Positions 8,372-28,820 of a stretch of DNA of 34,815 bases are shown here, piece by piece. The DNA is from Streptomyces sp. NRRL B-1347 (lineage in GTDB: Bacteria > Actinomycetota > Actinomycetes > Streptomycetales > Streptomycetaceae), in assembly GCF_000720325.1 (NCBI RefSeq), contig NZ_JOJM01000078.1, positions 1 through 34,815 of the forward strand. The letters run 5' to 3'. The notes beneath the pieces were generated by a model. It searched no databases. It was not told the origin of the DNA and was given only the letters and a program-made list of their open reading frames with translations. The first letter of the stretch is position 1; each line of letters starts with the position of its first letter. A program made the position numbers and the translations under genes.

Positions 8372-8399
8372 CCTTCGGGGGCGACGAGTCGTGCGACAG

Positions 8400-8628: not shown

Positions 8629-8689
8629 AAACGCCCGATACCTGACCTGGCGTGTTCTGGCCTGGATGCGCGGTTTGGCGAGCTGGCCA

Positions 8690-9158
8690 GTGCGTCCACG
8701 AGCAGCCCGTGGCCGCTCAGTTCGGTCTGGATGCCCCATCCCGAGCCTGGTACGACAGCGGCAACCTGGAGCTTCGGGCCCGTGTCCGCGCGCCATGCTG
8801 CCGTACTACTACGGCCCGCTGGAAGGCGCGGTCGTCCTGGGGCGAGAGGCCCGGCTGCTCTCCCGGGGGCGCCAGACTCCGACGGCAGCTTTCGCAGCTG
8901 CGGCAGAAGCCCGTGCCCTCGCCTGCCAAGGCAACGCGGCCGCTGCGGAAGCCGCCATCGCCGCCGCCCAGCGCATGTACGAACACTGCCATCACGGAGA
9001 CCAGGACGATGCGTTCGCCTTCCCCGAGCGGCGGCTTAACCTGTACCTGAGTGGCGCCTACACGGCCCTGGGGCGCAGCAGCCAGGCCCGCAATGCGCAG
9101 GAGCAGGCACTCGCCCTGTACCCGGCCCGGACGGGGATCGACCCCGCCCTGCTCCAGT
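8690..9158 (+). pseudogene. TPR/helical-repeat regulator, internal fragment
   Basis: The frame from about 8795 (MLPYYYGPLEGAVVLGREAR) through TAAFAAAAEARALACQGNAA and LYLSGAYTALGRSSQARN to DPALLQL matches the alpha-helical repeat region of the large Streptomyces helix-turn-helix/TPR regulators. Slightly upstream another frame contributes a related piece (WYDSGNLE), so it carries at least one frameshift. Such regulators often sit beside graspetide maturase genes. The fragment breaks off at about 9157, exactly where the ATP-grasp tail begins, pointing to a deletion that fused the two. Confidence 0.5.
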
Positions 9159-9266
9159 TACGAGGCGAACCCGAATGGACAGTTCGCCTGGTTTCCCTCC
9201 TCCATCACCCAACGGCTCGTCTGTGCCGTCGCCGACCAACTGCAATGCGCAGGAGAACCCTCGTGA
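9159..9266 (+). pseudogene. ATP-grasp peptide maturase, C-terminal tail only
   Basis: The last 35 codons before the methyltransferase read YEANPNGQFAWFPSSI to a TGA at 9264-9266. Glu-x-Asn-Pro-Asn-Gly is the metal- and ATP-binding signature at the very end of ATP-grasp peptide ligases, the enzymes that make ester or amide cross-links in graspetides (microviridin-like peptides; TgmB type). The stop overlaps the GTG of the methyltransferase by four bases (GTGA), the tight coupling expected between maturase and methyltransferase genes. Everything before this tail, including any precursor-peptide gene, is replaced by the TPR fragment. The family assignment is inferred from motif plus neighbour. 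Confidence 0.6.
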
Positions 9267-10405
9267 CCACCGACACCACGGCGCTGCGCCGCAGCCTGGC
9301 CGATGAGATCCACGCCGCCAACCCGACGCTCGCACCCCAGTGGCGCACCGCCCTCGCGGCTGTTCCCCGCGAGGTCTTCACCGGCACCGCGTTCTACCGG
9401 AACACCGGCACTGACTGGGAACCGCTGCACCGCGCTGCGGTCGGCGAAGAGGAGTGGCTGCGCCTGGTCCACACCGACCGCACACTCGTGACCCAGGTGG
9501 ACGGCGTTGATGCAGCCGCCGCGACCGGTCCCGTCACCGGCAGTCCCACCTCGTCGGCAACCCTGCCCTCCCTCGTGGTGCGCACGCTCCAGGTTGCTGG
9601 GCTGCGCGGGCAGGAGAAGGCCCTGGAGGTAGGCACCGGCACCGGATACTCCACCGCGATCCTGTGCCACCGCCTCGGAGAGGACCGTGTGGTCAGCGTC
9701 GAGTACGACCCAGGCCTGGCCGCGAGCGCGGCCACCCACCTCAAAGAGGCAAGGTACGCGCCGACGCTCGTCACGGGAGACGGCCTTCAGCAGCACCCGG
9801 AGGCGGACAACTGCGACGCCGTCGTCGCCACCTGCGCCGTGCGCTACATCCCGCGCTCCTGGATGTGGCAGCTCGCGGACCACGGCTCTATCACCACCAC
9901 CATCAGCGGCTGGATGCTCGCCTCCGGCCTGATCCGTCTCACACTCGACGACACCGGTGCCGCACACGGCCGCTTCACCGCCGACGAGATCTCCTACATG
10001 CTCGCCCGCCCGCACGAGAGGCCACCCAGCCCACCATTCCTGCGCCAGAACGGCGAGACCCGCCCAGCGAGCCTGGACCCCGCCCTGCTGGAGCAGTGGG
10101 CCGGACGCTTCGTCGCGCAACTCGCGGCACCCTCCGCCGAGCTGATGCACACCAGTACCGGGCCAGTACTGCGAGACGTGGCCACCGGATCGCAAGCCTG
10201 GGCCGAACAAGACGGCAGCGGCTGGCAAGTCCACCAGCACGGGCCACTGCGCCTGTGGGACAGAGTGGAAGAAGCGCTGCAGACCTGGCAGGAAGCCGGA
10301 GCTCCTCCCTTGACCGCATTCGGGATGACGGTCTCAGACACTGCCGAGGAGCAGGTCGTATGGCTGGAGTCCCCTGAGGGTCCACGCTGGCACCTACCCG
10401 TGTGA
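9263..10405 (+). CDS. graspetide-associated (TgmC-type) protein methyltransferase
   Basis: A 380-residue SAM-dependent methyltransferase related to protein-L-isoaspartate O-methyltransferases. Motif I is LEVGTGTGYS at residues 121-130; the upstream VTQVDG (about 76-81) and TGSPTSSATLPSLV segment are typical of the group annotated as methyltransferase of the ATP-grasp peptide maturase system. A C-terminal extension of about 150 residues follows the Rossmann domain. The GTG start has GGAG about seven bases upstream and overlaps the stop of the ATP-grasp tail. In complete clusters this enzyme methylates aspartate side chains of a cross-linked peptide, which can lead to isoaspartate. Precursor and maturase are missing here, so it is an intact orphan. 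Confidence 0.8.
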   Translation: MTTDTTALRRSLADEIHAANPTLAPQWRTALAAVPREVFTGTAFYRNTGTDWEPLHRAAVGEEEWLRLVHTDRTLVTQVDGVDAAAATGPVTGSPTSSATLPSLVVRTLQVAGLRGQEKALEVGTGTGYSTAILCHRLGEDRVVSVEYDPGLAASAATHLKEARYAPTLVTGDGLQQHPEADNCDAVVATCAVRYIPRSWMWQLADHGSITTTISGWMLASGLIRLTLDDTGAAHGRFTADEISYMLARPHERPPSPPFLRQNGETRPASLDPALLEQWAGRFVAQLAAPSAELMHTSTGPVLRDVATGSQAWAEQDGSGWQVHQHGPLRLWDRVEEALQTWQEAGAPPLTAFGMTVSDTAEEQVVWLESPEGPRWHLPV

Positions 10406-14092: not shown

Positions 14093-14485
14093 TCAGTGGT
14101 GGCCGGGCCGCTGGCCTTGGCCCGCTTCCCGCTCCCCTTCCGACCGTTCCGTGCGCTGGCCCTTGCGGCGGGGGGACAGGGTGCGGGGGTCGACCGCTTC
14201 CGCGGGGGCTCCCTTGGCGTAAAGGCCGGTGGGGGCCGTGTCGCGGTCGTGGGGGAGGAGCCAGAAGACGCGGCGGCGGAACGTGCCCGAGGCGCGGGAC
14301 GGCTGCGCTGCGGGGGCGAGGCGGGCGTAGCCGACCATGCGGCCGTCGCGGTGGTAGGCGGGTTTGCCGCGCCGGGTGGGGAGCCGGTCCAGGCTCTGGC
14401 GTACGTAATCGAGTTCTTCGATGTCTTCCAGCCACACGAGTTCGGCCTCGTAGGCGATCTCTTCCCTCGCGATCAGGGCACTCAT
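14093..14485 (-). CDS. small protein coupled to the plasmid/phage helicase gene, unknown function
   Basis: A 130-residue product starting MSALIAREEIAYEAEL; its ATG overlaps the stop of the helicase gene by four bases (ATGA), so it is translated with it. The first 90 residues look folded, with YHRDGRMVGYAR and FRRRVFWLLPHDRDTA segments; the last 40 are Arg/Glu/Gly-rich and probably disordered. I do not recognise a named family. Coupling to a replication-type helicase suggests a role in the same mobile element or phage satellite. Confidence 0.65.
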   Translation of the reverse strand: MSALIAREEIAYEAELVWLEDIEELDYVRQSLDRLPTRRGKPAYHRDGRMVGYARLAPAAQPSRASGTFRRRVFWLLPHDRDTAPTGLYAKGAPAEAVDPRTLSPRRKGQRTERSEGEREAGQGQRPGHH

Positions 14486-16002: not shown

Positions 16003-16821
16003 TCAACACACGCGGGCGGCGGCGACCCGGAACCCCGGCGTCGCGCCCCTCGCCTCGGTGGCGTGGCCAGCCGTGCCGCCCACCTCGACGGCGTCCGACT
16101 GGGCCCGGATGGACCGCTGGAGGCGCTGCAGCGGCACCGAGGGCTCCAGGCCCAACTCGCAGACGAGCGTGGTGTGCAGCTGCTGATAGGCGCGCAGGGC
16201 TTCGCCGCGCCGCCCCGAGCGGTGCAGCGCCAGCATGAACTGGGCGTGCAGTCCCTCGTGTGTACGGTGGCGGCCGAGGCGCAGGTCGGCCTCGATGCGC
16301 TGGTCGAGGGCGAACAGGCGGGCCTCTTCGAGCCGTTCGACCTCCATGGTGATCAGGCTGCCCGCCTGGATGTCGGCGAGGGCCCCCTCGCCGGACCATA
16401 GGGCGAGGGCTTCGCGCAGCTTGTGGGTCGCGCCTTGGTAGTCCTCGGCGTCCATGGCGTGGAACCCGGTAGCGGCCCGGCGCTCGAAATCCCGGAAGTC
16501 GACGCTGCCGCCGCCCGTCTGGAGCCGGTAGCCCCCGGGCAGGGTGACCAGGACGTCCTTGGCGCCTTCGCGGCCGCTGCCCTCGCGGGCGAGTGCCTCA
16601 CCGATGAGGTCGCGCAGTTGCAGTACGTACGTCTGGAGCGTCGCACGGGCGCTGCGGGGCGGCTTGTGGCCCCACAGCTCTGCCGTCAGCGTCGACACGG
16701 GGACCATCTGGTCGGCGTGCAGCGCGAGCAGGGCCAGCACCTGTCGCGGCTTCGGCGCGGAAGGGGCGACGGAGTGTCCGGCTACGCGCACTGACATCGA
16801 ACCCAGAACCTGGATGTCCAT
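16003..16821 (-). CDS. SARP-family transcriptional activator
   Basis: A 272-residue Streptomyces antibiotic regulatory protein. An OmpR-like winged helix covers about residues 12-95 (PKPRQVLALLALHADQMVPV, LWGHKPPRSARATLQTYVLQ); the bacterial transcriptional activation domain follows at about 100-245, ending in the typical YQQLHTTLVCELGLEPS. There is no ATPase or TPR extension, so it is the small SARP type (ActII-ORF4, RedD). The ATG at 16821 follows GGGAG by about six bases. Such proteins bind direct heptamers at 11-bp spacing and switch on biosynthetic operons. Its promoter contains a hormone-receptor-type operator, and it lies 500 bases from the hormone oxidase gene, so it is a likely output of that system. 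Its target cluster is not visible here. Confidence 0.9.
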   Translation of the reverse strand: MDIQVLGSMSVRVAGHSVAPSAPKPRQVLALLALHADQMVPVSTLTAELWGHKPPRSARATLQTYVLQLRDLIGEALAREGSGREGAKDVLVTLPGGYRLQTGGGSVDFRDFERRAATGFHAMDAEDYQGATHKLREALALWSGEGALADIQAGSLITMEVERLEEARLFALDQRIEADLRLGRHRTHEGLHAQFMLALHRSGRRGEALRAYQQLHTTLVCELGLEPSVPLQRLQRSIRAQSDAVEVGGTAGHATEARGATPGFRVAAARVC

Positions 16822-16915
16822 TCTGCTCCCCCTAGACGAGCGCAAGATGGGTTGCCCGTGGCTCACCATGTCCGCCGGCGCTGGGCACTGCGGCACGTCT
16901 CACACGAACCACTCC

Positions 16916-16945
16916 ATAAAAAACCCGCACGGTCGGTTTTGTCAA
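16916..16945 (-). promoter_or_regulatory. SARP promoter with embedded ARE-like operator
   Basis: Reading the minus strand, a consensus -35 TTGACA (16945-16940) is followed after 18 bases by TTTTAT (16921-16916) as -10. The spacer holds AAAACCGACC and GCGGGTTTTT, an imperfect inverted repeat resembling the autoregulatory elements (AAACC...GGTTT type) bound by gamma-butyrolactone receptors. A repressor bound there would cover the whole promoter. The predicted leader is about 90 bases. Between here and 17170 other short dyads occur, for example AGTTCC-TTG-GGAACT at 16994-17008. Confidence 0.6.
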
Positions 16946-17333: not shown

Positions 17334-19241
17334 TCATATGGGCTCGGCCGCACCGATCGGCTCGACCGCTGCCAGGCAGTGGTCCACGTGCGTCGCGTCG
17401 CCGTGGACGAGCGGGATCCCGGCGAGGACGCTCTCGGGGATGTCGAAGGCGTCCACCAAGGTCCGGAGGTGGGGCGCGAGTTCGCCGATGAGGTGCTCGA
17501 CCGACGCGGAGAGCGCCCGGACCTGGTCGACCGTCATGCGCTGCTCGGCGAGCAGGTCACCGCTGCTCTTGGTGAGCTCCTTGAGCAGGAACAGGCGGCA
17601 CAGGCCGACCAGCGGCGGATGCGCCGCGGTGCCTTCGGCCCGTTCTGCCGCGGCCAGGAAGGCGTCGGCGGCCTTCCGGCGGGCGTGGGCCTCGACGAGC
17701 TCCAGGGCGTAGGGCGAGGCGGCGTTCCACCGGGCCAGCGGGTCCCCGGACTGGCCCTGTCGCAGGGCGTCGCGGGTTCGGGCCTGCCAGATCGTCTCGG
17801 CGTCGCACAGCAGGTCCCGCAGGAACGCCAGGTCGCTCAGGTGCCGGTCGGCGGGGTCCGTGCCGGGCGCGGAGTGCGGGGGCACCTCGTGACCGAAGAT
17901 CATCTCGGCGGCGGCCTTGAGCCAGATCACCAGGTTGTCGCCCTCGGCGGTGATGGTCCCTTCCAGGTCCGTGACCAGCTCGGACAGGCGGTTGGCGGCG
18001 AACAGGCCGCGGGCGCCGCAGCGTTCGCGGCACTCGGTGGCGATGGCGCGCGCCTGCCAGGTGTTCCAGCCCTTGGTGACGGCGACCTGGCGCTCGGCCT
18101 CCGCCCGCTCCTGCGGGGTGTGCTCCACCCAGCGGGCAACCGTGGCCCGGTGCAGGAACGTCATGGCGTAGGTGGTGGCGGTGGCGCAGAGGAGGCGGCC
18201 GTGGTGACTGCGGTGGGCGGCCAGGGGGACGCGCGTGCCGGCCTTGGGGCCGCTGATGTGCCGGTTGTAGGCGAAGCGCGTCGCGATGGCGAGGGACGTG
18301 CGCGAGACGCCGATGGCGGCGGCGCTCATGCAGAGCTTGCCCGTGGTGACCCGGGCGATGGAGTGCAGGAACCGCTTGCGCCGGTTGCCCAGGTCGCTGC
18401 GGAGCTGTCCTTCGGGGGTCAGCCGCCCGTGATCGGCCTCGAGGAGGGCCGTGCGCGGCAGCGACACGTGGTTGAAGGAGGTGAGGCAGTGGTCGACCGG
18501 GCTGCCCAGGCGCGGCGGCAGCGGGCGCACGGTGATGCCGGGCAGGGGGCCCATGTCGTCGCTGAGCGGCGTGAGGAACAGGAAGACGCCGTGGTCCTCG
18601 CCGTCGACGAGCAGGCGGGCCGCGACCACCGCGGACTTGGGGCCGCCGACGGCGCTGGTGTTCGCCATGAACTTCTGGGCACCGGTGTGCGGGGTGTGCA
18701 GGACGAATCCGCCGGTCGCCCGGTCCAGGACGGCGGTGGTCCGCAGGGCCGCCGCGTCGTTGCCGTGCTCGAGTTCCGTGCACAGAAACGTTCCTGTGCG
18801 GTCCAGGCTGGTGTAGCGGGACACGTCCCGCCGGTGGGTGTCGTGGTCGAGGAGGCTGCCGAGGAAGAGGTTGTAGTGGATCCCGGCGAGCGTGGTCAGG
18901 CCGCTGTCGACCACGCCGGTCCACTCGTGCAGGGCGGCGAGCCTGCGGGCGTCGAGGGCCAGTTCCTCGGGGTTGGCCAGGGTGTCGTTCACCAGGTGCA
19001 GCCGCTGGTAGGAGAGTGCCGCCCGCTCGCCGTAGGGCAGCTCGGGGCGCGGGGCGAACGCCGCGCCGGAGATGAGCTCGCGCCAGGGAGCGTGGACCTG
19101 CTCCCGGTCGTGCCGGTCGAAGAGCAGGCCGGTCAGTTCGGTGACTGTCGGATCGAGGGCGGGCCGATCGGTCGCGCGGTCGGATCTCTGGGTCTGGGTC
19201 GGCCGCGCCGTCCCACGGGAGTCCTTCTCAGACGTCAACAA
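17334..19241 (-). CDS. aco: acyl-CoA oxidase of the avenolide (Aco) type
   Basis: A flavoprotein of about 635 residues in the acyl-CoA oxidase family. The FAD/substrate part has TGTFLCTELEHG and the AQKFMANTSAVGGP segment; the C-terminal oxidase domain contains TAEGDNLVIWLKAAAE near residue 434, whose glutamate fits the catalytic base of acyl-CoA oxidases. In S. avermitilis the homologue Aco introduces the double bond that leads to the butenolide ring of avenolide; the same role is inferred here from the adjacent divergent hormone receptor and P450 remnant. The start is uncertain: TTG at 19241 or 19238, 10-13 bases after GGGGAGG; an ATG at 19325 would overlap the promoter and operator. Its promoter carries an ARE-like site, so the receptor probably represses it. 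Confidence 0.85.
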   Translation of the reverse strand: MLTSEKDSRGTARPTQTQRSDRATDRPALDPTVTELTGLLFDRHDREQVHAPWRELISGAAFAPRPELPYGERAALSYQRLHLVNDTLANPEELALDARRLAALHEWTGVVDSGLTTLAGIHYNLFLGSLLDHDTHRRDVSRYTSLDRTGTFLCTELEHGNDAAALRTTAVLDRATGGFVLHTPHTGAQKFMANTSAVGGPKSAVVAARLLVDGEDHGVFLFLTPLSDDMGPLPGITVRPLPPRLGSPVDHCLTSFNHVSLPRTALLEADHGRLTPEGQLRSDLGNRRKRFLHSIARVTTGKLCMSAAAIGVSRTSLAIATRFAYNRHISGPKAGTRVPLAAHRSHHGRLLCATATTYAMTFLHRATVARWVEHTPQERAEAERQVAVTKGWNTWQARAIATECRERCGARGLFAANRLSELVTDLEGTITAEGDNLVIWLKAAAEMIFGHEVPPHSAPGTDPADRHLSDLAFLRDLLCDAETIWQARTRDALRQGQSGDPLARWNAASPYALELVEAHARRKAADAFLAAAERAEGTAAHPPLVGLCRLFLLKELTKSSGDLLAEQRMTVDQVRALSASVEHLIGELAPHLRTLVDAFDIPESVLAGIPLVHGDATHVDHCLAAVEPIGAAEPI

Positions 19242-19295
19242 GGTTAGGGGACCTCCCCCGTCGATGGGGGCCCCGGAGTCAGGGGCCCAACTCGT

Positions 19296-19325
19296 AAGAT
19301 ACGTACCAACCGGTCTGCTTCTCAA
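19296..19325 (-). promoter_or_regulatory. aco promoter with ARE-like operator 1
   Basis: On the minus strand TTGAGA (19325-19320) and TATCTT (19301-19296) form a -35/-10 pair with an 18-base spacer. The spacer contains AGACCGGTTGGTACGTA, an ARE-type dyad around ACCGGT. The position is ideal for repression of the acyl-CoA oxidase gene by the divergently encoded receptor. It matches the layout of receptor-controlled promoters in known butyrolactone and avenolide loci; binding itself is inferred. Confidence 0.6.
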
Positions 19326-19418
19326 GGCCCTTTCCTGTAACGGCAGTTGCTATTGGGAACGTGCGATGTCTCACGGGATGCACAGGAAGGCGCAGAGCTG
19401 GCGACCGCCCCTTGCGCG

Positions 19419-19442
19419 AGAAACCGACTAACCGGTCTTTTG
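19419..19442. promoter_or_regulatory. ARE-like operator 2
   Basis: AGAAACCGACTAACCGGTCTTT contains the AACCGGT core and AT-rich flanks seen in receptor operators. It lies midway between the divergent aco and receptor genes, with no obvious promoter of its own, and could act with the outer two sites. Confidence 0.4.
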
Positions 19443-19545
19443 GGCTGTTGCCGCTCCCGGCCGGGGGTGTCGCCACTGGGTGATGGAGGGTCGTGATCGA
19501 TCGTGGTCCGTAGGGGTTCGAGAAGGCGGGGGACGTTGGCGATGG

Positions 19546-19573
19546 TAGAATACGAACCTTGCGGTTTGTTTAG
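19546..19573 (+). promoter_or_regulatory. receptor promoter -10 overlapped by ARE-like operator 3
   Basis: TAGAAT at 19546-19551 is a good -10 box for the receptor gene. It overlaps ATACGAACC-TTGC-GGTTTGTTT, the best of the three ARE-like dyads (arms AACC and GGTT, AT-rich ends). This would give autorepression, standard for receptors of this family. I could not place a convincing -35 box at the normal distance. Confidence 0.6.
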
Positions 19574-19600
19574 TGCAAGTAGTTCGGGGCGGAGGTGTGA

Positions 19601-20290
19601 ATGATGGTCCGACAGGAACGAGCTGTCAGGACGCGGCAGAAGATCCTGGTGGCCGCGGCCGAAGTGTTCGACCGGGTCGGGTACGACGCGGCCACGATCT
19701 CTGAGATCCTCAAGCGCTCCGGCGTGACCAAAGGTGCCCTGTACTTCCACTTCGCGTCCAAGGAAGAGCTCGCCCAGGCGGTCCTCGCCAATCAGATGAC
19801 CGCGCTGCGCGTGCCGGAGCAGGACCTGATCATGCAGGAGGGGCTCGACGCCTCCCTGCTCCTGGCTCATCTGCTGTATCTGCACGAGCCGATGGTGCGC
19901 GGCAGCGTGCGCCTCACCGTCGAGCAAGGCGCCCTGCAGAGCGTCCTGGATCGCCGGGTCCCCATGCAGGCGTGGATCAGCCACAACACCGCCCTGCTGG
20001 CCCGGGCCAAGGCCGCCGGTGAGCTCCTGCCGCACGTCGACGTCGACGTCGCCGCGCGGATGTTCATCGGGGCGTTCACCGGTGCCCAGGTCCTTTCGAA
20101 GATCATGACGGACCACGCAGACATCGTCGAAAGTGCGACGGAGGTGCTCCAGCACCTCCTGGCGTCGATCATGGTTCCGGGAGTCCTCGTCCGCATGGAC
20201 TTCTCCCGGGGCCGGGCGGCGCGTGTGTACGAGGCCGCCATGGCACTCCATCAGGAACAGGAAGAGCCCGAGCCCGCACACGTCGGGTGA
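19601..20290 (+). CDS. hormone receptor, TetR-family repressor of the ArpA/AvaR1 type
   Basis: A 229-residue repressor. The N-terminal helix-turn-helix (about residues 10-55) reads RQERAVRTRQKILVAAAEVF and ISEILKRSGVTKGALYFHF, with GALYFHF strongly characteristic of the gamma-butyrolactone/avenolide receptors (ArpA, ScbR, AvaR1). The ligand domain follows, with a conserved tryptophan in QAWISHN as in ArpA-like receptors. GGAGG at 19591-19595 is five bases from the ATG at 19601 and eight from a second ATG at 19604; either may be used. It is divergent from the acyl-CoA oxidase gene and followed by a P450 remnant, the order of avaR1 in S. avermitilis. It should repress its own gene, aco and perhaps the SARP until hormone binds. 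It is intact although the P450 step is lost. Confidence 0.92.
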   Translation: MMVRQERAVRTRQKILVAAAEVFDRVGYDAATISEILKRSGVTKGALYFHFASKEELAQAVLANQMTALRVPEQDLIMQEGLDASLLLAHLLYLHEPMVRGSVRLTVEQGALQSVLDRRVPMQAWISHNTALLARAKAAGELLPHVDVDVAARMFIGAFTGAQVLSKIMTDHADIVESATEVLQHLLASIMVPGVLVRMDFSRGRAARVYEAAMALHQEQEEPEPAHVG

Positions 20291-20291
20291 G

Positions 20292-20316
20292 GTTGGCTGA
20301 CGCACCATCAGCCAAC
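20292..20316 (+). terminator. hairpin terminator after the receptor gene
   Basis: GTTGGCTGA and TCAGCCAAC form a perfect 9-base stem with a 7-base loop, starting two bases after the receptor stop codon. Confidence 0.65.
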
Positions 20317-20411
20317 AGGGGAGAGGGCGGACAGGGTCCTCGTGCGCACGTTCTGGAACGCGGCTCATGGCGAACCGAACGGAGTGCGTGCACTGATGGG
20401 AAGGGCACGCA

Positions 20412-20706
20412 CTGTGCCCTTACGCCCTGGCCGTCGCCGGCGGTGACCTCGCGGGGGAAGCGGCACCGCTCAGCGAGCAGGGGCCCGCGGTCGAGATGGA
20501 ACTGCCCGGTGGCGTCGTCGCCTGGGCGGTCGTCCGCGCGGAGTACGTGGAGCGCTGCCTGGCCGACCCGCGTGTCTCACGGGACGCGAAGCAGCACTGG
20601 CCCGCCCTCGCCGAAGGACGGACAGCGCAGGACTGGCCGCTGTACCCCTAGGTCGCCGACACGAACATGCTGACCTCGTAGGGCAAGGACCACACGCGGC
20701 CTGACC
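20412..20706 (+). pseudogene. cytochrome P450 (Cyp17-like), N-terminal remnant
   Basis: The frame from about 20412 reads [20 protein letters not shown], then [36 protein letters not shown] and QDWPLYP, the N-terminus of an actinobacterial P450. A TAG then follows at the position where relatives have tryptophan (PLYPW), the frame continues VADTNMLTS to a second TAG, and the sequence GKDHTR, from the start of the conserved HTRLRR motif, closes the recognisable part. Nothing after about 20706 resembles a P450: the I-helix, ExxR and heme-cysteine regions are missing. There is also an in-frame TGA before the first recognisable residue. In S. avermitilis the P450 beside avaR1 (cyp17) hydroxylates the avenolide precursor; this is its likely dead counterpart. 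Confidence 0.72.
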
Positions 20707-20780
20707 GCCCGCGCCCCGGCTGCGCCACCGGGCGCCGCCGGGGCAGCGTAACGCCGAAGGCACCCACTCCGATCCAGCCT

Positions 20781-20818
20781 CCCGCGGGACCACCGCCACC
20801 GTGCTGTGGTCCCGCGGG
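20781..20818 (-). terminator. hairpin terminator
   Basis: CCCGCGGGACCAC and its complement GTGGTCCCGCGGG form a 13-base stem around a 12-base loop. It lies at the end of the leftward second-receptor pseudogene and probably served its transcript; it would also work for the P450 remnant from the other side. Confidence 0.6.
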
Positions 20819-21500
20819 GCGCCGCCCGGCTCGGTCGTGCCTGCTTCGTATGCTGTGTCGGCGCGGCCCGGTGACAGGGTGTCCAGAGTGGCGAGTGCCT
20901 CAGCCGTGACCAAGGACGGCAGCAGCAGACGCCAGAACCGGTCGAGCACATCGGCCGAGAGCCACTGCGGATCCGTGCGCCCGAGCATCTCGAACCCGAC
21001 GGTCGCGGCCATGATCGAGGCCACCGCGTCCTCTTCGGCGACATGCTCGGCGAGCAGGTTCTCGGCGGCCGTGTCGGTGATCATTCGCTGGACGCAGCGG
21101 TACCACTCGCCGCGCAGCGTCAGATTGGTGCCGTCGCTCGTCTCGCAGCTCAGGTGATACCCGGCGCGGGCCACCACGTCATCGCACAGCCGCTCGGCCA
21201 GCGCCCGCGAGGTGCCGATGAGCCGTTGCAGGGCGTTGTCGGCCGCCTGCTGTGGCTTCGGCCGCAGTGCGGCGCAGCGTCGTGGCCGCCGTGGTCTCCA
21301 CCGTGCCGGCGACCGCCGCCTTATTCTCGAAGTGGAAGTGCAGCGCGCCGGGGCTGACCCCGGCGTTGGAACTGATCTCCGCCAGCCTGGTCTTGGGCGT
21401 AGCCGCACTGCTCGAAGGCCTCGGCGGCCGTTTGGGCGGGCGCCTGACGGGTCCGGACGACGCAGTGCGCAGGTCGCCCGTGTGTCGGCGCTCGTGCAGG
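20819..21500 (-). pseudogene. second TetR hormone-receptor homologue, frameshifted
   Basis: Three minus-strand frames combine into one receptor-like protein. The first gives VRTRQAPAQTAAEAFEQCGY (positions near 21480-21410), the second KTRLAEISSNAGVSPGALHF plus HFENKAAVAGTVE, and the third continues from PKPQQAADNALQRLIGTSRA through GEWYRCVQRM to FEMLGRTDPQWLSADVLDRF. Thus at least two frameshifts (near 21400 and 21265) interrupt it. GALHFHF marks it as a butyrolactone-receptor homologue, perhaps a pseudo-receptor such as AvaR2 or ScbR2. The ligand-domain frame alone is open for over 200 codons, but without the DNA-binding domain it cannot work as a repressor. The frame runs past the hairpin at 20781, so the original stop has also been lost. 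Confidence 0.7.
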
Positions 21501-21624
21501 CAGGGCCGGAGGGCCCCGGTCGACCGGGGCGGATCAATCCGGTCCTGTGGATGCAGAGAAACAGACTTAACGGTATGGTTTCCCGGATGGGTGCGCTCGG
21601 TGGGATCTGAGCCGCTACCGACCG

Positions 21625-21646
21625 GGCTGAGCGCTGCCGCTCAGCC
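21625..21646. terminator. short hairpin
   Basis: GGCTGAGCG-CTGC-CGCTCAGCC, a perfect 9-base stem with a 4-base loop. It separates the receptor pseudogene from the DedA gene. Between here and 21920 I see no gene. Confidence 0.5.
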
Positions 21647-21921
21647 GTCCCAAGGCGCGCCGCCCGCGTGGGGCACGGGGGCGGCATCCCTGCCTGCTGG
21701 AGCCCGTCATGATTGGAAGGAGCGGGTCCGGTGTGTGAGTCGGCTGTGTCCCATCGTTCCCCTCCGTCACGGCAGGGCCCGTCCGTCCGTCCACGGTGGT
21801 GGCGCGTGCGCGGCGGTCCGGTCTTCTGCCCCGCGAGGGTGTGGTTTTCTTCGGGGTCCGGCTGCGGTCGGCTTGAAGAAGGTCGGTGGTTTCCCTCGTA
21901 GTGGCGCTGATCTGCACTTTC

Positions 21922-21927: not shown

Positions 21928-21989
21928 TGAGAGCAGTCAGCGGGGCGGCTCGACCGCCTCTTCCGCTTCCTGCCCACCCGAGGTGTTCT

Positions 21990-22664
21990 ATGCAGTCCGC
22001 GACCGCGACCCTGGCCCTGTCCGAAGCGCCCGCCGGCGGCATCGCCGGGTGGGCCGCCGACCTCGTCGACAAGATGGGCGGTGTGGGAGCCGGAGCGGCC
22101 ATCGCTCTGGAGAACCTGTTCCCGCCCCTGCCCAGCGAGGTGATCCTGCCGCTGACCGGTTTCGCCGCCGGTCAGGGCGTGCTCAGCCTCGCCTCCGCCC
22201 TGTTCTGGACCACGCTCGGCTCCGTGGTCGGCGCGGTCGCGCTGTACTGGATCGGCGCGCTGATCGGCCGGGAGCGGATGTACGCGATCTGGGCCAAGCT
22301 GCCGCTGGTGAAGGTCGCCGACCTGGAGCGGACGGAGGCCTGGTTCGCCAAGCACGGCACCAAGGCGGTGTTCTTCGGCCGCATGGTGCCGATCTTCCGC
22401 AGCCTGATCTCGGTGCCCGCCGGCATCGAGCGGATGCGGATGCCGATGTTCCTCGCGCTGACCGCCGCGGGCAGCTTCATCTGGAACGCGATCCTCGTGA
22501 TGGCCGGCTACTGGCTCGGCGACCAGTGGGAGCTGGTCGAGAACTACGTGGGCGTGCTGTCGAAGGTCGTCCTGCTGCTCGTCGTGGTCGCCGTGATCAC
22601 GTTCGCCGTACGGCGCATGAACAAGGCGCGGGCCGGCCGCGCCGCCCAACACCGGAGGTCGTGA
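21990..22664 (+). CDS. DedA-family membrane protein
   Basis: A 224-residue integral membrane protein. The family signature is present: an N-terminal re-entrant segment with ENLFPPLPSEVILPLTGFAA (about residues 38-57), then FFGRMVPIFRSLISVPAG (about 130-147), where the arginines and prolines form the conserved core. Four to five membrane helices are visible, with a basic C-terminus. DedA/SNARE-associated proteins act as lipid scramblases or flippases, for example for undecaprenyl phosphate, and support membrane homeostasis. GAGG lies six bases before the ATG. It ends just before a strong terminator, so it is not cotranscribed by design with the kinase downstream. Confidence 0.9.
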   Translation: MQSATATLALSEAPAGGIAGWAADLVDKMGGVGAGAAIALENLFPPLPSEVILPLTGFAAGQGVLSLASALFWTTLGSVVGAVALYWIGALIGRERMYAIWAKLPLVKVADLERTEAWFAKHGTKAVFFGRMVPIFRSLISVPAGIERMRMPMFLALTAAGSFIWNAILVMAGYWLGDQWELVENYVGVLSKVVLLLVVVAVITFAVRRMNKARAGRAAQHRRS

Positions 22665-22686
22665 ATGACCGTCGAACCCGTCACGA

Positions 22687-22722
22687 CGCCTGACGCGCCG
22701 GCCCTGCCCGGCGCGTCAGGCG
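22687..22722 (+). terminator. strong hairpin terminator after dedA
   Basis: CGCCTGACGCGCCGG and CCGGCGCGTCAGGCG make a perfect 15-base stem with a 6-base loop, 23 bases after the dedA stop. It lies inside what would be coding sequence if the kinase started at 22665, which argues for the later kinase start. Confidence 0.8.
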
Positions 22723-22818
22723 CGTCCACCGTGCGGGGGGCACCCGCCGCGTACGACGTGCCCGCCGGGGGTCGGGACACCACCTCCGCGAGGCCCGCCT
22801 CCGCCGTACCGGGCGATG

Positions 22819-22857
22819 TTGTCAGGGCGAGCGCCCCGCCCTTAGGGTCGGGCACCG
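22819..22857 (+). promoter_or_regulatory. kinase promoter, probably leaderless transcript
   Basis: TTGTCA (22819-22824) and TAGGGT (22843-22848) are separated by 18 bases, and the GTG start at 22857 follows the -10 box after eight bases. That puts the transcription start at or next to the start codon, so the mRNA would have no leader, which is common in Streptomyces. Confidence 0.65.
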
Positions 22858-24053
22858 TGCCAGAGGACCCGTCCTACGCCGAGGCCCTCGCCCGGGCCAT
22901 GAACCCGCAGGGCGTGGGGTCCGAGCCGGAGGCGCCCGCGCCCTTCGGCCGCAGGGCGGCCGGGCTGCTCCTCGGCATCGCCACCAGCTTCCTCGCCCTC
23001 CTGTACTTCCTGACCGCGGGCCTCGGGCTCGGCGTGGCCCTGCTGTGGCCGCGCACCCGGCCCGGCGCCCTGAGGCTGCTGCGGGCCGGGGCCGGGCGCC
23101 TGACCGCGATCGAGCGGTGGCGGCGCTCGGCGTTCTTCGCCGACACCTACCCCTCCGAGCACGACGCCCGCAAGGACCTGCCCTACCTCGCGTCCCGCAT
23201 CGCGATGGGGCCGGTCAGCGCCGCCGTGGTCGGACTGCTCGGCGTCGGCGTGGTGCTCGCGGGGCTGCTCGCGTACGGAGCGGTGCGCGGCACCATAAGC
23301 GCGGGCGAACTCCTCGGGCAGGTGCTGCTCGGCAGCGCGCTGCTCTTCCTCGACGTCCAGGGCCTCGTCTCGCTGGCCGGGCTCGACGAGCGGCTCGCCC
23401 GGCGCTGCTTCGGCCCCTCCGACCGCGAACTCCTCGAACGGCGCGTCCTCGAACTCGCCGCGAGCCGCGCCGGCATCGTCCAGGTCGTCGACGTCGAGCG
23501 CCGCCGCATCGAGCGCGACCTGCACGACGGCGTCCAGCAGCGCCTGGTGGCGCTCGCCATGCTGCTCGGCCGCGCCAACCGCAACCCCGACAAGGCCGCC
23601 GAACTCCTCCAGCAGGCCCACATCGAATCGCGGGAAGTCCTCGGCGAACTGCGCGAAGTGGCCTGGCGCGCCTATCCGTCGGCGCTCGACAGCCTCGGCC
23701 TCGAAGAGGCGCTCGCCGGAGTGGCCGAGCGGTGCAGCATCCCGCTCCACATCGACTTCCGGCTCACCGAGAAGCTGCCCCAGAGCACCGAGACGGCCAC
23801 CTACTTCGTCGTCTCCGAATCCGTGACGAACGCCGCGAAGCACTCCGGTGCCGACCGCATCGACGTCAGCGTCGGCCGGGACCGCGGCAAGGTCGTCATC
23901 CAGGTCCGCGACAACGGCCGCGGCGGTGCGGACCCGGAGGGCAGCGGCCTGTCCGGGCTGCGCCGCCGGGCCGCCGCGCTCGACGGCGACCTGCACGTCC
24001 ACAGCCCCCTGGGCGGACCCACCACGATCACTGCGGAGCTCCCGTGCGCATAG
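22857..24053 (+). CDS. NarL-type sensor histidine kinase
   Basis: A 398-residue kinase. Two membrane-helix pairs occupy about residues 40-75 and 115-175 (LLLGIATSFLALLYFLTAGL, then SAAVVGLLGVGVVLAGLL), with little outside the membrane, as in intramembrane-type sensors. The HisKA_3 dimerisation domain has the phosphorylated histidine at residue 223 in ERDLHDGVQQR. The ATPase domain follows, with the N-box SESVTNAAKHS and the G-box DNGRGGADPEGSGLSGL. The start at 22857 is chosen for its promoter and the terminator at 22687-22722; an in-frame ATG at 22665 is the alternative and would add 64 low-complexity residues. The stop overlaps the response-regulator start by ten bases, so the two form one operon. 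The signal is unknown; a cell-envelope stress is a reasonable guess. Confidence 0.9.
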   Translation: MPEDPSYAEALARAMNPQGVGSEPEAPAPFGRRAAGLLLGIATSFLALLYFLTAGLGLGVALLWPRTRPGALRLLRAGAGRLTAIERWRRSAFFADTYPSEHDARKDLPYLASRIAMGPVSAAVVGLLGVGVVLAGLLAYGAVRGTISAGELLGQVLLGSALLFLDVQGLVSLAGLDERLARRCFGPSDRELLERRVLELAASRAGIVQVVDVERRRIERDLHDGVQQRLVALAMLLGRANRNPDKAAELLQQAHIESREVLGELREVAWRAYPSALDSLGLEEALAGVAERCSIPLHIDFRLTEKLPQSTETATYFVVSESVTNAAKHSGADRIDVSVGRDRGKVVIQVRDNGRGGADPEGSGLSGLRRRAAALDGDLHVHSPLGGPTTITAELPCA

Positions 24054-24688
24054 TCCTCGCCGAAGACTCGATCCTGCTGCGCGAAGGGCTCGTGCGGCTG
24101 CTGACCGAGGAAGGCCATGAGGTCGTCGCGGCCGTCGGCGACGGAGTCTCGCTGATAAAGGCCACGGAGGAACACACCCCGGACCTGATCGTCGCGGACA
24201 TCCGGATGCCCCCCACGCACACCGACGAGGGCATCAGGGCCGCCCTGGAGATCCGCACGCGCTGGCCGGAGATCGGCGTGCTCGTGCTCTCCCAGCACGT
24301 GGAGAAGAACTACGCGGCCCAGCTCCTGACCACCGACTCCGCGCGCGTCGGCTACCTCCTGAAGGACCGGGTCGCCCAAGTCGAGGAGTTCCTGGAGTCC
24401 TTGGAGCGCGTGCACGCGGGCGGCGCCGCCATCGACCCCGAAGTCGTCCGCCAGCTCCTGGCCCGTACCACCCACGTCGACCCGCTCGGCAAACTCACCC
24501 GGCGCGAACGCGAGGTCCTCGCCGAGATGGCCCAGGGCCACACCAACGCGGCCATCGCGCAGAAGCTGAGCATCGCCCAGAGCACGGTGGAGAAGAACGC
24601 CAACACGATCTTCGAGAAGCTGGACCTGTCCCACACCACCGGCTACAGCCGCCGGGTCCTGGCCGTGCTGCGGTACTTGGGCTCGTAG
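24044..24688 (+). CDS. NarL/LuxR-type response regulator
   Basis: A 214-residue DNA-binding response regulator. The receiver domain has the acidic pocket (AEDS at 6-9), the phosphorylated Asp52 in VADIRMP and Lys107 in GYLLKDR. The LuxR-type helix-turn-helix covers about residues 147-205 (LTRREREVLAEMAQGHTNAA, STVEKNANTIFEKL). The GTG at 24044 follows GGAG by five bases and overlaps the kinase stop, a clear partner relationship. In this family the sensor phosphorylates the regulator, which then binds promoters as a dimer. No target is obvious from position; the dedA gene upstream is a candidate. Confidence 0.93.
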   Translation: MRIVLAEDSILLREGLVRLLTEEGHEVVAAVGDGVSLIKATEEHTPDLIVADIRMPPTHTDEGIRAALEIRTRWPEIGVLVLSQHVEKNYAAQLLTTDSARVGYLLKDRVAQVEEFLESLERVHAGGAAIDPEVVRQLLARTTHVDPLGKLTRREREVLAEMAQGHTNAAIAQKLSIAQSTVEKNANTIFEKLDLSHTTGYSRRVLAVLRYLGS

Positions 24689-24715
24689 GCTTCCGCGCCC
24701 CACCCGTTCCCGCCC

Positions 24716-24744
24716 GCGCCCGCCCGAGTCGTCCGGGCGGGCGC
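24716..24744 (+). terminator. hairpin terminator of the two-component operon
   Basis: GCGCCCGCCCG and CGGGCGGGCGC form an 11-base stem with a 7-base loop, 28 bases after the response-regulator stop. Confidence 0.7.
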
Positions 24745-24750
24745 ACTCGT

Positions 24751-24788
24751 GCGGTGTGCCCCCGGCCGTCCGGCCGGGGGCACACCGC
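24751..24788. terminator. bidirectional terminator between convergent genes
   Basis: A perfect 17-base stem (GCGGTGTGCCCCCGGCC and its complement) closes on a 4-base loop. It lies between the convergent response-regulator and cyclodeaminase-like genes and should stop transcription from both sides. Confidence 0.85.
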
Positions 24789-24832
24789 GCTGTGGGGGAT
24801 GTGGGGGGATGCGTGGGGGGGCTCGGGTGTCC

Positions 24833-25858
24833 TTACCGGAAGGAGTACGGGTCAAGGGCGTCCGCCGGGAGGTGCTCCAGGTGCACGCGGTCGCCGAGGC
24901 CCGCCTCCTCGGCGAGCTCGATGAGGACGTCGAGGGCGACGTGGTCCTCCAGGGCGAAGCCGGTGGAGTCGAAGACCGTGACGCGCTCGCGCAGGCCTTC
25001 GGTGAGTTCGGGGCGGGCGCACAGGGCCATCAGCTCGGGGCCGAGGTCGTTCTCGGTGAGCTGCTGGCCCTCGCCCTCGCGCAGTGACTGGGCGACGTGG
25101 TCGACGGTGACGAACGCGGACTTCAGCAGCGCCAGCGGCAGCTCGAACTTGCCGATCAGGTCGGCACCGATGGCGTTGATGTGCGCGTGCGGCTTCAGGT
25201 TCTCGCCCCGCAGGACCGGCCCTTCGCCGACACCGACCGACGTGACCGTGCAGATGATGTCCGCGGCGGCCTCCAGCTCGGCCAGGTCCACGACGCGTAC
25301 GTCGATGCCGAGGAACTCCACGCGGTCCGCGAACGACGCGGCGTGCTCCGGGTCGACGTCGTACACGAGGATCTCGTTCAGCGGGAACACGCGGCTGAGG
25401 GCGTGCGCCTGCGTCACCGCCTGGGCGCCGGCGCCCACCAGGCCGAGGACCTCGCTGTCCGCCTTCGCGAGCAGGGAGCTGGCGATCGCGGAGGCGGCAC
25501 CCGTGCGGATCGCGGTCGGCAGGATGCCGTCACTGATCGCCACCAGGCTGCCGGTGACGTCGTCGTACCGGGCGAGCGAGCCGATGATCGTCGGCAGGCG
25601 CCGCTCGTTCGGGTTCGACGGGGTGTACCCCACGGTCTTGATCGTCACCGAGTCGCCCGGCTGGTGGTGGGGCATCCACTCGAGGACCCCGGTGTCGCCG
25701 GGGCACCGCAGGAAGCCTTCCCGTGCGGGCGTGACGCCCGGGCTGTCGGCGGTGAACGCCGCCCGCAGCCTCTCGATCATCAGGTCCATGAGGTGGTCCC
25801 GGCCGCTGTTGCCCACCAGCTTGGCAACATGCTGCTGATTCAGCACCAGGGTTTCCAT
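24833..25858 (-). CDS. ornithine cyclodeaminase / mu-crystallin family enzyme
   Basis: A 341-residue NAD-dependent enzyme. The NAD-binding Rossmann loop is GLVGAGAQAVTQAHAL; the substrate domain has KTVGYTPSNP, with the conserved lysine, and the region ending INAIGADLIGKFEL carries the catalytic aspartate of the family (position near 230). The family includes ornithine cyclodeaminase, lysine cyclodeaminase and SbnB-like synthases that make unusual amino acids for peptide antibiotics and siderophores. The ATG at 25858 follows AAGGGAAG by about five bases; an in-frame start near 25939 lacks support. Given MbtH, NRPS thioesterase and exporter genes nearby, it probably supplied a proline or other non-standard residue to a peptide, but the reaction cannot be told from sequence alone. 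Confidence 0.85.
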   Translation of the reverse strand: METLVLNQQHVAKLVGNSGRDHLMDLMIERLRAAFTADSPGVTPAREGFLRCPGDTGVLEWMPHHQPGDSVTIKTVGYTPSNPNERRLPTIIGSLARYDDVTGSLVAISDGILPTAIRTGAASAIASSLLAKADSEVLGLVGAGAQAVTQAHALSRVFPLNEILVYDVDPEHAASFADRVEFLGIDVRVVDLAELEAAADIICTVTSVGVGEGPVLRGENLKPHAHINAIGADLIGKFELPLALLKSAFVTVDHVAQSLREGEGQQLTENDLGPELMALCARPELTEGLRERVTVFDSTGFALEDHVALDVLIELAEEAGLGDRVHLEHLPADALDPYSFR

Positions 25859-26267
25859 TTTCTTCCCTTCATCGATAACGCGATCTGGCATCTTCTTGTC
25901 ACCTTGCGCGGCGTATTCATCTGTGTTTCTGCGCGACAATGGGGACGCACTCGCTGACGCCGGGAAAGAGCAGGGAAAGGCGCCGTGGCGAGAGCCGGAA
26001 AAGGGGTGGGGAAGGCAGCGTGCGGATTGCTCCCCCCGAGCAGGGCACCGCGCTTCGTCTCGCCAGAAACGTAGCTGGCCGGATTCGAAGCCGTCAAGGT
26101 TTCATCGTATTTGTGTGGCGGGAAGCTTCCAGACCGGACTGGAAGTTTTCTTCAGGGTCCGCATGGGGTTTTTCCCGGGGTATCAGGTGGATTGCTGCCT
26201 GTCCTTTGCCGAACCCCGGAAACTAGCGTGATCCGTGTCGAACCAATCGACTGAGTGGTGACGAGCC
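25859..26267. other. divergent promoter region, no gene
   Basis: This 409-base gap between the cyclodeaminase and MMPL genes is less G/C-rich than its neighbours and contains no credible coding frame. Its only clear element is the near-palindrome at 26126-26145. Confidence 0.5.
26126..26145. promoter_or_regulatory. 20-bp near-palindromic operator candidate
   Basis: CTTCCAG-ACCGGA-CTGGAAG is symmetric except for the two positions flanking the CCGG centre. It lies about 145 bases before the MMPL gene and in the divergent region with the cyclodeaminase-like gene. The size and symmetry suit a dimeric repressor such as TetR or MarR. The regulator is not identifiable. Confidence 0.5.
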
Positions 26268-26288
26268 GTGTACGGAAGGAAAACGGCG

Positions 26289-28820
26289 TTGAGGAAAAAT
26301 CCAGCGACAGTGCGGATCGCACGGTGGAGCGCCAACCACCCGTGGTCAGCGATCGGTCTGTGGACCGCGTTCGTCGTGCTGTGCCTCTTCCTGGGCGGCG
26401 CGGCCGGAACCAACAAGATCAGTGACGACGAGTCGGGCGTCCGTGAATCGGGCCGCGCCGGCAAGATCGTGGCCGACGGCGACTTCGGCGAGCAGCCCGA
26501 GGAAAGCGTCCTGATCACTGCCAAGGAAGGAGGGAAACTCCAGGTCAAGGCCGCACGGGCGGCCGCGACGGACGTCCAGCGGCGGATGAAGAGCCTGGAC
26601 GGCGTCGCCTCGGTCGGCGCGCCCGTCGCCTCCGATGACGGCCTCGCCATGCTGGTGCCCGTCGTCATGAAGGGCGACGCCGAGAACGCCGACCAGCGCA
26701 TCCAGCCGCTGCTCGACCAGAGCGCCGCCGCCGAACAGGCCCACCCGGGCCTGCGCGTCGAACAGGTCGGCACCGGCTCCACCGCCAAGGGACTCACCGA
26801 AACCCTCGGCAAGGACTTCCAGAAGGCCGAGTTCATCAGCCTGCCGATGACCCTGCTCATCCTGCTCGTGGTGTTCGGCGCCCTCATCGCGGCCGGCGTG
26901 CCCGTGGTGCTCGCCCTGTCCGCCGTCGGCGCCGCGATGGGCCTGTCCTCCCTCGCCTCCCACCTGCTGCCCGCCACCAGCGCGATCAGCAACGTGATCC
27001 TGCTGATGGGCATGGCCGTGGGCGTCGACTACTCGCTCTTCTACCTCAAGCGGGAGCGCGAGGAGCGGCAGAAGGGCAAGTCCCACCACGACGCCATCGA
27101 GATCGCCGCCGAGACCTCGGGGCACACCGTCGTGGTCTCCGGCATCACCGTCATGGTGTCCATGGCCGGGCTCTACCTCGCCAACGAGGCGACCTTCGCC
27201 TCCCTCGCCACGGGCTCGATCATCGTCGTCGCGGTCGCCGTGATCGCCTCGCTCACCGTCCTGCCCGCGCTGCTCGCCAAGCTCGGCCGCTGGGTCGACC
27301 GCCCCAAGATCCCCTTCCTGTGGCGGCTGACGATGCGCTCCGGCGAGTCGCGGGTGTGGCCCGCGCTGCTGCGCCCCGCGCTCGGGCGGCCCGCCCTCAC
27401 CCTGGTGCTCTCCGTCGTCGTGCTGCTGCTCGCCGCCCTGCCCGCCCTGGACATGAAGCTCAAGCAGCCCGGCTCCGACGACCTGTCGCGGGACATCCCG
27501 GTGGTCCGCGCCATGGACCGGCTCACCCACTCCTTCCCGAGCAAGGGCACCGTGCACCAGGTCGCGGTGCGGGCCTCCGCCGACCAGGCGGGCGAGGTCA
27601 AGTCCGCGCTGCGCGACCTGGCGCGGCGCGTGGAGAAGGACAAGCTGTTCGCGCACGACCAGGAGCCCAAGCTCCGCGAGTCCGCCGACCACCGCGTCCA
27701 CACCCTCGACATCGGCACGCCGTACACGCCCAAGAGCGACGGCGCCCGCGCATCCCTGGACACCCTGCGCTCCTGGGTGCCGGCGGCCTTCGACGAGGTG
27801 CCCGGCGCGGAGCACGGCGTGACCGGCAAGGTGGCGCAGAGCGTGGACTTCACCGCGCACCTGGAGGAACGCCTGCCGTACGTGATCGGCTTCGTCCTCC
27901 TGCTCACCCTCGTCATGATGGCGGGGATCTTCCGCTCCGCCGCCATCGCCCTGTCCGCGATCGGGCTCAACCTGCTCTCCGCCGCCGCCTCCTTCGGTGT
28001 CCTGGTGGCCGTCTTCCAGCACACCTGGGCGGAGAAGCTGCTCGACTTCCAGTCCAGCGGCGCGGTGGTGTCGTGGCTGCCGCTGTTCCTCTTCGTGGTC
28101 CTGTTCGGCCTGTCGATGGACTACCACGTCTTCGTCGTCAGCCGGATCCGTGAGGCCGCCGAGAGCGGCATGTCCACCAAGGACGCGGTGCGCGACGGCA
28201 TCGTGAAGTCCGCGGGCGTCGTCACCAGCGCGGCCGTCGTCATGGTCGGGGTGTTCTCCATCTTCGGCACGCTGAGCATGGTCGAGTTCAAACAGCTCGG
28301 CGTCGGTCTCGCCGTCGCGATCCTTATCGACGCCGTCGTCATCCGCATCTTCGTCCTGCCCGCCCTGATGACGGTCCTCGGTGACCGCAACTGGTGGCCG
28401 GGCGGCCTGCGCAGCCGCGGCCGGAGCACGGCCGTGCCCGCCCACGCGGGCCGCACCACCGCCACGGCGCGGCAGCCGGTGGCCGCGGGCACCGCCTCCT
28501 ACCCGGGCCAGGCGTCCCACGCGCCCCGGACGGACCACACCGGCTACGCCCGGCGCCGGGCGGACACCCACCAGGACCCGTACGTCCCCCAGCAGGCCCA
28601 GCAGCAGTACGCGCCGCCCTACACCCCCGAGCAGCAGGCGTACTACACCGATCACCCCGACCACTCCGGCTACACCGAGCAGCACCACCGGCACCAGGCC
28701 CCGTACCAGGCGCCCCAGCAGCCCTACCAGCAGCAGCCCGGCCCCTACTGGCCGCAGCAGCCCGCCCAGCACGACCCGCGGAACCAGCCCTACGGCGACC
28801 GCCCCGGACCGGAGTACTGA
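26289..28820 (+). CDS. MMPL-family (RND-type) exporter
   Basis: An 843-residue transporter with two repeats: a first helix, a large outer loop, then five to six helices, each repeated. Family motifs GMAVGVDYSLFYLKREREE and FGLSMDYHVFVVSRIREA, with the proton-relay Asp-Tyr, are intact in both halves. Such proteins export lipids, lipopeptides or antibiotics using the proton gradient. The TTG at 26289 follows GGAAGGA by eight bases; GTG at 26268 is an alternative with a weaker site and would add seven residues. The last 120 or so residues form a Gln/Pro/Tyr-rich, presumably disordered cytoplasmic tail. Divergent from the cyclodeaminase-like gene and next to NRPS remnants, it is a likely product exporter for that lost pathway. 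Confidence 0.92.
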   Translation: MRKNPATVRIARWSANHPWSAIGLWTAFVVLCLFLGGAAGTNKISDDESGVRESGRAGKIVADGDFGEQPEESVLITAKEGGKLQVKAARAAATDVQRRMKSLDGVASVGAPVASDDGLAMLVPVVMKGDAENADQRIQPLLDQSAAAEQAHPGLRVEQVGTGSTAKGLTETLGKDFQKAEFISLPMTLLILLVVFGALIAAGVPVVLALSAVGAAMGLSSLASHLLPATSAISNVILLMGMAVGVDYSLFYLKREREERQKGKSHHDAIEIAAETSGHTVVVSGITVMVSMAGLYLANEATFASLATGSIIVVAVAVIASLTVLPALLAKLGRWVDRPKIPFLWRLTMRSGESRVWPALLRPALGRPALTLVLSVVVLLLAALPALDMKLKQPGSDDLSRDIPVVRAMDRLTHSFPSKGTVHQVAVRASADQAGEVKSALRDLARRVEKDKLFAHDQEPKLRESADHRVHTLDIGTPYTPKSDGARASLDTLRSWVPAAFDEVPGAEHGVTGKVAQSVDFTAHLEERLPYVIGFVLLLTLVMMAGIFRSAAIALSAIGLNLLSAAASFGVLVAVFQHTWAEKLLDFQSSGAVVSWLPLFLFVVLFGLSMDYHVFVVSRIREAAESGMSTKDAVRDGIVKSAGVVTSAAVVMVGVFSIFGTLSMVEFKQLGVGLAVAILIDAVVIRIFVLPALMTVLGDRNWWPGGLRSRGRSTAVPAHAGRTTATARQPVAAGTASYPGQASHAPRTDHTGYARRRADTHQDPYVPQQAQQQYAPPYTPEQQAYYTDHPDHSGYTEQHHRHQAPYQAPQQPYQQQPGPYWPQQPAQHDPRNQPYGDRPGPEY

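Follow-up and report, generated by a model that had tools for sequence, protein, structure and literature searches.

We analysed the complete contig NZ_JOJM01000078.1 of Streptomyces sp. NRRL B-1347 (C78 in our numbering; 34,815 bases, hereafter the window), part of a genome of 10.23 Mb assembled as 362 contigs (G000), which carries a butenolide-hormone locus with a dead biosynthetic P450 gene. An acyl-CoA oxidase gene of the Aco type (17334–19325, minus strand), a divergent receptor gene and the remnant of a Cyp17-type P450 gene lie side by side, confirming the order that the initial annotation had likened to aco-avaR1-cyp17 of S. avermitilis. The oxidase reading frame is uninterrupted for 663 amino acids and its product matches the Pfam domains ACOX_C_alpha1 and ACOX above cut-off; the true start probably lies near 19240, judging from the annotated gene of Streptomyces sp. 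NBC_01136. The oxidase shares 54–65% identity with those at receptor-bearing loci, as expected of the Aco type, and is the sole match of this type in the genome. The particular glutamate that we take to be the catalytic residue is present in all 47 sequences compared.

The receptor gene (19601–20290, plus strand) encodes an AvaR1-like protein of 229 amino acids that scored 194.7 bits against the NCBIfam model ScbR_bind_reg (cut-off 150); nothing else in the genome exceeds the cut-off for the ScbR family. The oxidase and receptor are therefore both intact, as initially annotated. The best solved relative of the receptor is AvaR1 (6wp7, E 2.3e-84), whose hormone-contact residues were taken from PMC7347384. 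Seven of these (Q64, L88, T108, W127, F161, T162 and Q165) are retained in the window receptor, while A85, T131 and V158 are replaced by S, N and I, all of which occur in relatives. By our own test for a pseudo-receptor, the loss of lactone-contact residues, the protein does not belong to that class, since Q64, T108, T162 and Q165 are kept. Only one change was detected at the 44 columns that are invariant in the other 46 sequences. In AvaR1, T131 is described as contacting the C10 hydroxyl of the hormone (PMC7347384); co-evolution of the window receptor with an absent hydroxyl was considered and rejected, because N is the commonest residue at this position (27 of 49 rows), including at loci with an intact P450.

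Pattern searching, together with similar sites in relatives, located two predicted receptor operators (autoregulatory elements, ARE) on the plus strand of the oxidase–receptor intergenic region, one at the oxidase promoter (19299–19320) and one 51 bases upstream of the receptor start (19550–19571). Placement is comparable in relatives: among the 49 rows scanned, L125 alone gave no match at up to three mismatches, and several others gave weak matches only. By sequence pattern, autoregulatory elements are thus predicted at both promoters. In the 10.23-Mb genome, the pattern gave three matches with at most one mismatch, all within the window, and the reversed pattern used as a control gave none under the same conditions. 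The third, unplanned match is an ARE-like site (16918–16939, minus strand) upstream of a gene for a SARP-type activator with BTAD and winged-helix domains (16003–16896, minus strand; Pfam BTAD, 104.8 bits; Trans_reg_C, 28.8 bits), the translation start of which, read by eye, is probably an internal ATG near 16821. Six other rows have a SARP of 50% identity or more: the upstream site is similar, with two mismatches, in L104 and L119, and L141, L142, L111 and L107 give only three-mismatch matches.

The P450 pseudogene (20412–20762, plus strand) retains codons 6–120, approximately, of about 411, or some 29% of the gene. A tblastn search with Cyp17-type P450s gave 56–58% identity over query residues 6–121 (window 20415–20762), and a separate search gave 53% identity over 20412–20777, with two in-frame TAG codons. 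The start codon is also gone: between a TGA at 20394 and the conserved CPYAL at 20415 there is no ATG, GTG or TTG. Searching the window at E≤1e-6 recovered nothing else from a P450, so the heme-cysteine region is absent. The gene is dead, as first proposed; the earlier statement that similarity ceases after the first quarter was right about the heme-cysteine region, but the similarity runs about 50 bases beyond the limit of 20706 given there. Base-calling error cannot account for the deletion of 70% of a P450 gene. In a tree of 80 sequences, the remnant nested within the Cyp17 clade, formed by the P450s that accompany Aco-type oxidases, and its family membership rests on this tree together with the gene order. 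The family identities first assigned by motif reading were upheld for all three genes. Cyp17 acts at position C10 of the hormone. In the same tree, 28 other P450s of this genome all fell outside the clade, and no Cyp17-clade P450 was found among them. The nearest, C5:87801–88991 (49% identity to a Cyp17) and C4:242027–243247 (47%), are the closest sisters of the clade, yet lie outside it; the rest reach at most 41%. These results weaken the earlier suggestion that another P450 serves the pathway.

Convergent with the P450 remnant lies a second ScbR-family regulator (20881–21458, minus strand), a pseudogene whose pieces, spread over three frames, are 57%, 82% and 63% identical to the intact gene of NBC_01136. 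Its frameshifts could be base-calling errors. A long open reading frame (20470–21687) was rejected as an intact version of this gene, having no Pfam match and its homologous pieces in three frames. No AfsA-type synthase gene adjoins the receptor: the one AfsA-domain match of the genome lies on contig C51 and scored 41.4 bits against ScbA_BarX (cut-off 200). This match (L204, C51 9134–10657) is a 507-amino-acid reading frame with the AfsA domain in its C-terminal part only, far below the ScbA/BarX cut-off.

We compared the locus with known systems. In S. avermitilis, as in the window, the oxidase, ScbR-family receptor and P450 genes of avenolide signalling are adjacent, and receptor sites are reported at the aco and receptor promoters (PMC5744401). 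The window differs in its dead P450, dead second regulator, an operator-like site also at the adjacent SARP gene, and N in place of the T131 that contacts the C10 hydroxyl. Oxidase, receptor and P450 genes also lie close together in snbX-spbR-snbU of S. pristinaespiralis and orf18*-tylP-orf16* of S. fradiae (PMC7554373), where, in contrast, the P450 is intact in nature and its loss is described for laboratory mutants only. Another counterpart is on a linear plasmid of Streptomyces sp. NBC_01136 (NZ_CP108633; locus L103), which heads the plasmid matches to the oxidase (65.4% identity) and shares the order oxidase, receptor, P450 and convergent second regulator, but with both the P450 and the second regulator intact.

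Next to these systems, we surveyed gene content in 392 genomes of the same genus, Streptomyces. An oxidase match at E≤1e-50 was present in 126, and the best 80 matches were fetched with their surroundings. An AvaR1-type receptor was found in 43 of these 80 stretches, the window and five plasmid records being excluded from the count, and the other 37 had no Cyp17-type P450 of at least 50% identity beside the oxidase; L123 (G259), for example, has an oxidase of 63% identity without a receptor or P450 partner. A receptor-first survey gave a match at E≤1e-55 in 55 of the 392 genomes, and one neighbourhood was read in each. Both the oxidase and a Cyp17-type P450 were full-length in the stretch in 44 of the 55, including G257, where primase genes have displaced the P450, which is also inverted, and G129, in which the oxidase is only 46% identical. 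In G257 (L228, C3:115000–130000), the genes that separate the receptor from the P450 encode primase/polymerase, P4 primase and DUF6009, and the full-length Cyp17, in reverse orientation, is 61% identical to that of NBC_01136 and 92% to that of NBC_00335.

The remaining 11 loci were incomplete. The P450 was missing or broken with the oxidase in place in the genome of the window (G000) and in G343, where the oxidase ends at the contig edge. The oxidase was missing or broken with the P450 present in G188, G197, G213 (a draft contig, with a 50% oxidase on another contig), G329, G174 and G027. In the mirror cases G027 (L272), G174 (L271) and G329 (L268), the oxidase is fragmented or cut short beside a full-length P450 and receptor. 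Neither biosynthetic gene was at the locus in G381, G080 and G253; G080 and G253 have an oxidase or pieces of one 26–36 kb away. In G381 (L260, C1:5800000–5817000), the receptor (8093–8749) is of the AvaR1 type (66% identity) with an intact pocket and an operator-like site; no oxidase or P450 match was found in the stretch, and no oxidase match genome-wide at E≤1e-50. Eight of the 11 (G000, G343, G381, G253, G213, G329, G174 and G027) keep Q64, T108, W127, F161, T162 and Q165, and nine have an operator-like site with at most one mismatch upstream of the receptor, none being found in G213 and G329. Contacts are changed in three receptors that lack an oxidase at the locus, G080 (L265; Q64R and T108A), G188 (L261; T108A and T162G) and G197 (L262; T108A and T162S). 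These three are perhaps pseudo-receptors, judging from the substitutions, and a listening role for every solo receptor was rejected on account of their lost contact residues. No broken receptor was found among the 55, as selection by receptor would yield in any case. A TAG in the G289 receptor was discounted, because at query residue 221 (of 229) it simply marks a normal C terminus. Oxidase stops in L104 (residue 21), L107/L111 (8 and 12), L118 (3) and L130 (655) were likewise discounted, being outside the conserved core.

Evolutionary rates were compared by counting unique changes. In a joint oxidase–receptor tree, the window grouped with L103 and G343 (support 0.71), and L103 and G343 were sisters (support 1.0). 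Since L103 has an intact P450, two independent losses are the simpler account, and a shared origin of the losses in the window and G343 was rejected. G343 contig 22 resembles the window in retaining the oxidase, receptor and both operators without the P450, but differs in having no P450 relic at the locus, a full-length second regulator (81% identical to that of NBC_01136) and a faster oxidase; its best P450 match elsewhere in the genome, which was not placed in the tree, is 50% identical. With three outgroup sets, the oxidase changes of G343 and L103 were 48:19 (p 0.0005), 55:15 and 45:12, and the receptor changes 6:3, 6:5 and 9:7. By these counts, the oxidase of G343 is evolving faster than that of its P450-bearing sister, and the receptor is not. 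Between the window and G343, the oxidase counts were 19:42. For the 78 codons that precede the first stop in the P450 remnant, the counts of the window against L103 were 6:7, 11:5 and 9:5, and after that stop 6:1, 6:0 and 6:1 over 23 columns. The loss thus looks recent in the window, whereas in G343 the P450 has vanished. The intact oxidase of the window is consequently weak evidence of continued need, the P450 remnant before its first stop having hardly decayed either.

The block as a whole resembles linear-plasmid loci. Beyond the SARP gene lie genes for a plasmid-type DUF6009 protein (14135–14485, minus strand; 83% identity over 117 amino acids to an NBC_01136 plasmid protein) and a P4-family phage/plasmid primase (14482–15888, minus strand; TIGR01613, 281.1 bits, cut-off 108.7), which is 81% identical to its NBC_01136 homologue, the first 45 residues of the latter being unmatched. 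Both genes are also next door on the NBC_01136 plasmid, where the order is parB, second regulator, P450, receptor, oxidase, DUF6009, P4 primase and primase/polymerase; unlike in the window, the primase block has the other orientation and includes primase/polymerase, and parB is present. A search of the window at E≤1e-6 detected neither primase/polymerase nor parB. An oxidase relative is carried by 48 plasmid records, 40 of them from Streptomyces, and five plasmid loci were read with their annotation (NBC_01136, NBC_01296, NBC_00464, NBC_01431 and NBC_00335). Primase genes adjoin the oxidase in NBC_01296 and NBC_00464, and none lies beside it within the stretch read in NBC_01431 and NBC_00335. 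Further along the window, 21984–28820 forms one block, encoding a DedA/VTT protein, a histidine kinase, a LuxR-type response regulator, an ornithine cyclodeaminase-like protein and an MMPL transporter, which recurs wholly or partly in G004, G017 and G049; in G004 and G049, the stretch resembling 22.0–28.8 kb is part of a contig of chromosome size. To judge from this right flank, a plasmid block may have inserted cleanly into a chromosomal cassette, but no simple junction is apparent from the left flank or from the plasmid order of S. xanthii. The window also contains a methyltransferase of the ATP-grasp peptide maturase system (8666–10405; TIGR04188, 414.9 bits, cut-off 380) and, near the contig end, a transposase-like gene (33400–34710; HTH_38 and integrase core). 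The plasmid-type setting, the second dead regulator and the SARP operator all go beyond the initial annotation.

The account that we favour, tentatively and with somewhat less than even confidence, is that the locus is a sender–receiver butenolide module of the linear-plasmid kind, recently broken by the loss of its P450 and turning into a listener. The direction of control is taken from AvaR1, for which repression and release by ligand are described (PMC5744401). The receptor dimer would repress its own gene, the oxidase gene and the SARP gene; a butenolide would release the dimer, allowing the SARP to activate its targets. Without Cyp17, the hydroxylated hormone could not be completed, and avenolide production is reported to need both aco and cyp17 (PMC5744401). 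Because the strain appears to lack a Cyp17, the circuit would be driven mainly by the butenolides of neighbours, its own unfinished hormone adding little at most; this would be an early step from sender–receiver to receiver only. Of the outcomes first proposed, listening gains from the intact pocket, the predicted operators, including that at the SARP gene, and the pattern across the 55 genomes. G343, with its separate P450 loss, faster oxidase and steady receptor, is a parallel case, and the ligand activity reported as lost in orf16* and snbU mutants (PMC7554373) points the same way.

The main rival, which we consider rather unlikely, is self-signalling, in which the deoxy-butenolide of the oxidase pathway still releases the receptor and the P450 is dispensable. 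The oxidase and its operator are intact in the window, and in S. rochei an srrO P450 mutant is reported to make 6′-deoxo-SRBs that are 100-fold weaker on the receptor, with normal antibiotic production (PMC7564063); by analogy, this precedent may keep alive the deoxy-hormone outcome of the initial annotation, although SrrO serves another pathway, one based on the AfsA homologue SrrX. Avenolide-like compounds of S. albus J1074 are also reported to differ in activity in S. avermitilis (PMC6930871). Against self-signalling, loss of the P450 orf16* or snbU is reported to abolish receptor-ligand activity, snbU mutant extracts no longer releasing the receptors (PMC7554373), and the oxidase of G343 has evolved faster than in its P450-bearing sister. 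That the module is instead a functionless relic, dying with the plasmid segment that brought it, is unlikely in our view. Two genes are dead, the primase/polymerase and parB were not found, and the recent-looking death of the P450 would have left other genes little time to decay; the receptor, SARP, oxidase and three operator-like sites are nevertheless intact, the receptor is changed at a single otherwise invariant column, and in G343, with its older loss, the receptor keeps a normal rate. Least probable, and very unlikely, is hydroxylation of the hormone by a different P450 of the same genome. There are 54 P450-family matches, some genes being counted more than once, and the two closest sisters of the Cyp17 clade are among them, but both fall outside it and neither adjoins an Aco-type oxidase, whose sole match is in the window; at E≤1e-100, which Cyp17s pass as well, matches to the nearer one (49%) turn up in 184 of 199 genomes, so it looks generic.

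Several observations weigh against a module that has become a listener. Of 124 columns that do not vary among the other 46 sequences, the window oxidase departs at four (rank 45 of 47). When deep outgroups are used, its unique changes outnumber those of 39 of 43 other loci, although many of these loci are related to the outgroups; some relaxation of this gene is possible. Against L103, the unique changes of the window are 20:22 for the oxidase and 13:12 for the receptor, with no rate difference, so the signature of G343 is not seen in the window. The G343 rate result itself comes from a single pair of loci. Compared with some other P450-bearing loci, the window has evolved faster in both the oxidase (L110, 45:6; L104, 41:16) and the receptor (19:4 and 17:2, respectively). 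The grouping of the window with L103 and G343 has modest support, and with so recent a loss the remaining genes may simply not have decayed yet. The operator pattern was built after the oxidase and receptor promoter sites had been seen, and only the SARP match is out of sample; the receptor-first survey is blind to loci whose receptor was lost. In addition, antibiotic production is reported to have risen, not fallen, in the snbU mutant, and that source describes the ligand role of orf16* as not demonstrated (PMC7554373).

It is possible, although we hold it with some doubt, that Streptomyces butenolide modules repeatedly become listeners, the biosynthetic half being lost while the receptor and operators stay. 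The window, G343 and G381 might then represent successive stages, an order we propose with similar reserve: a freshly dead P450, an erased P450 with a relaxed oxidase, and an intact-pocket receptor alone. An earlier genome survey, according to PMC7347384, defined loci by a P450 beside the receptor, so P450-less loci lay outside its view. In a search of titles and abstract openings that covered few subscription journals, we found no report of a butenolide locus that lacks its P450 or acts as a listener. If the proposal is true, butenolide listener loci would be an actinobacterial counterpart of the LuxR solos. The present locus is a natural experiment on the purpose of the P450 step. Should sender-less receivers prove common, a neighbour's butenolide may be what opens the antibiotic clusters of strains that are silent in pure culture, and sequence could be used to select them.

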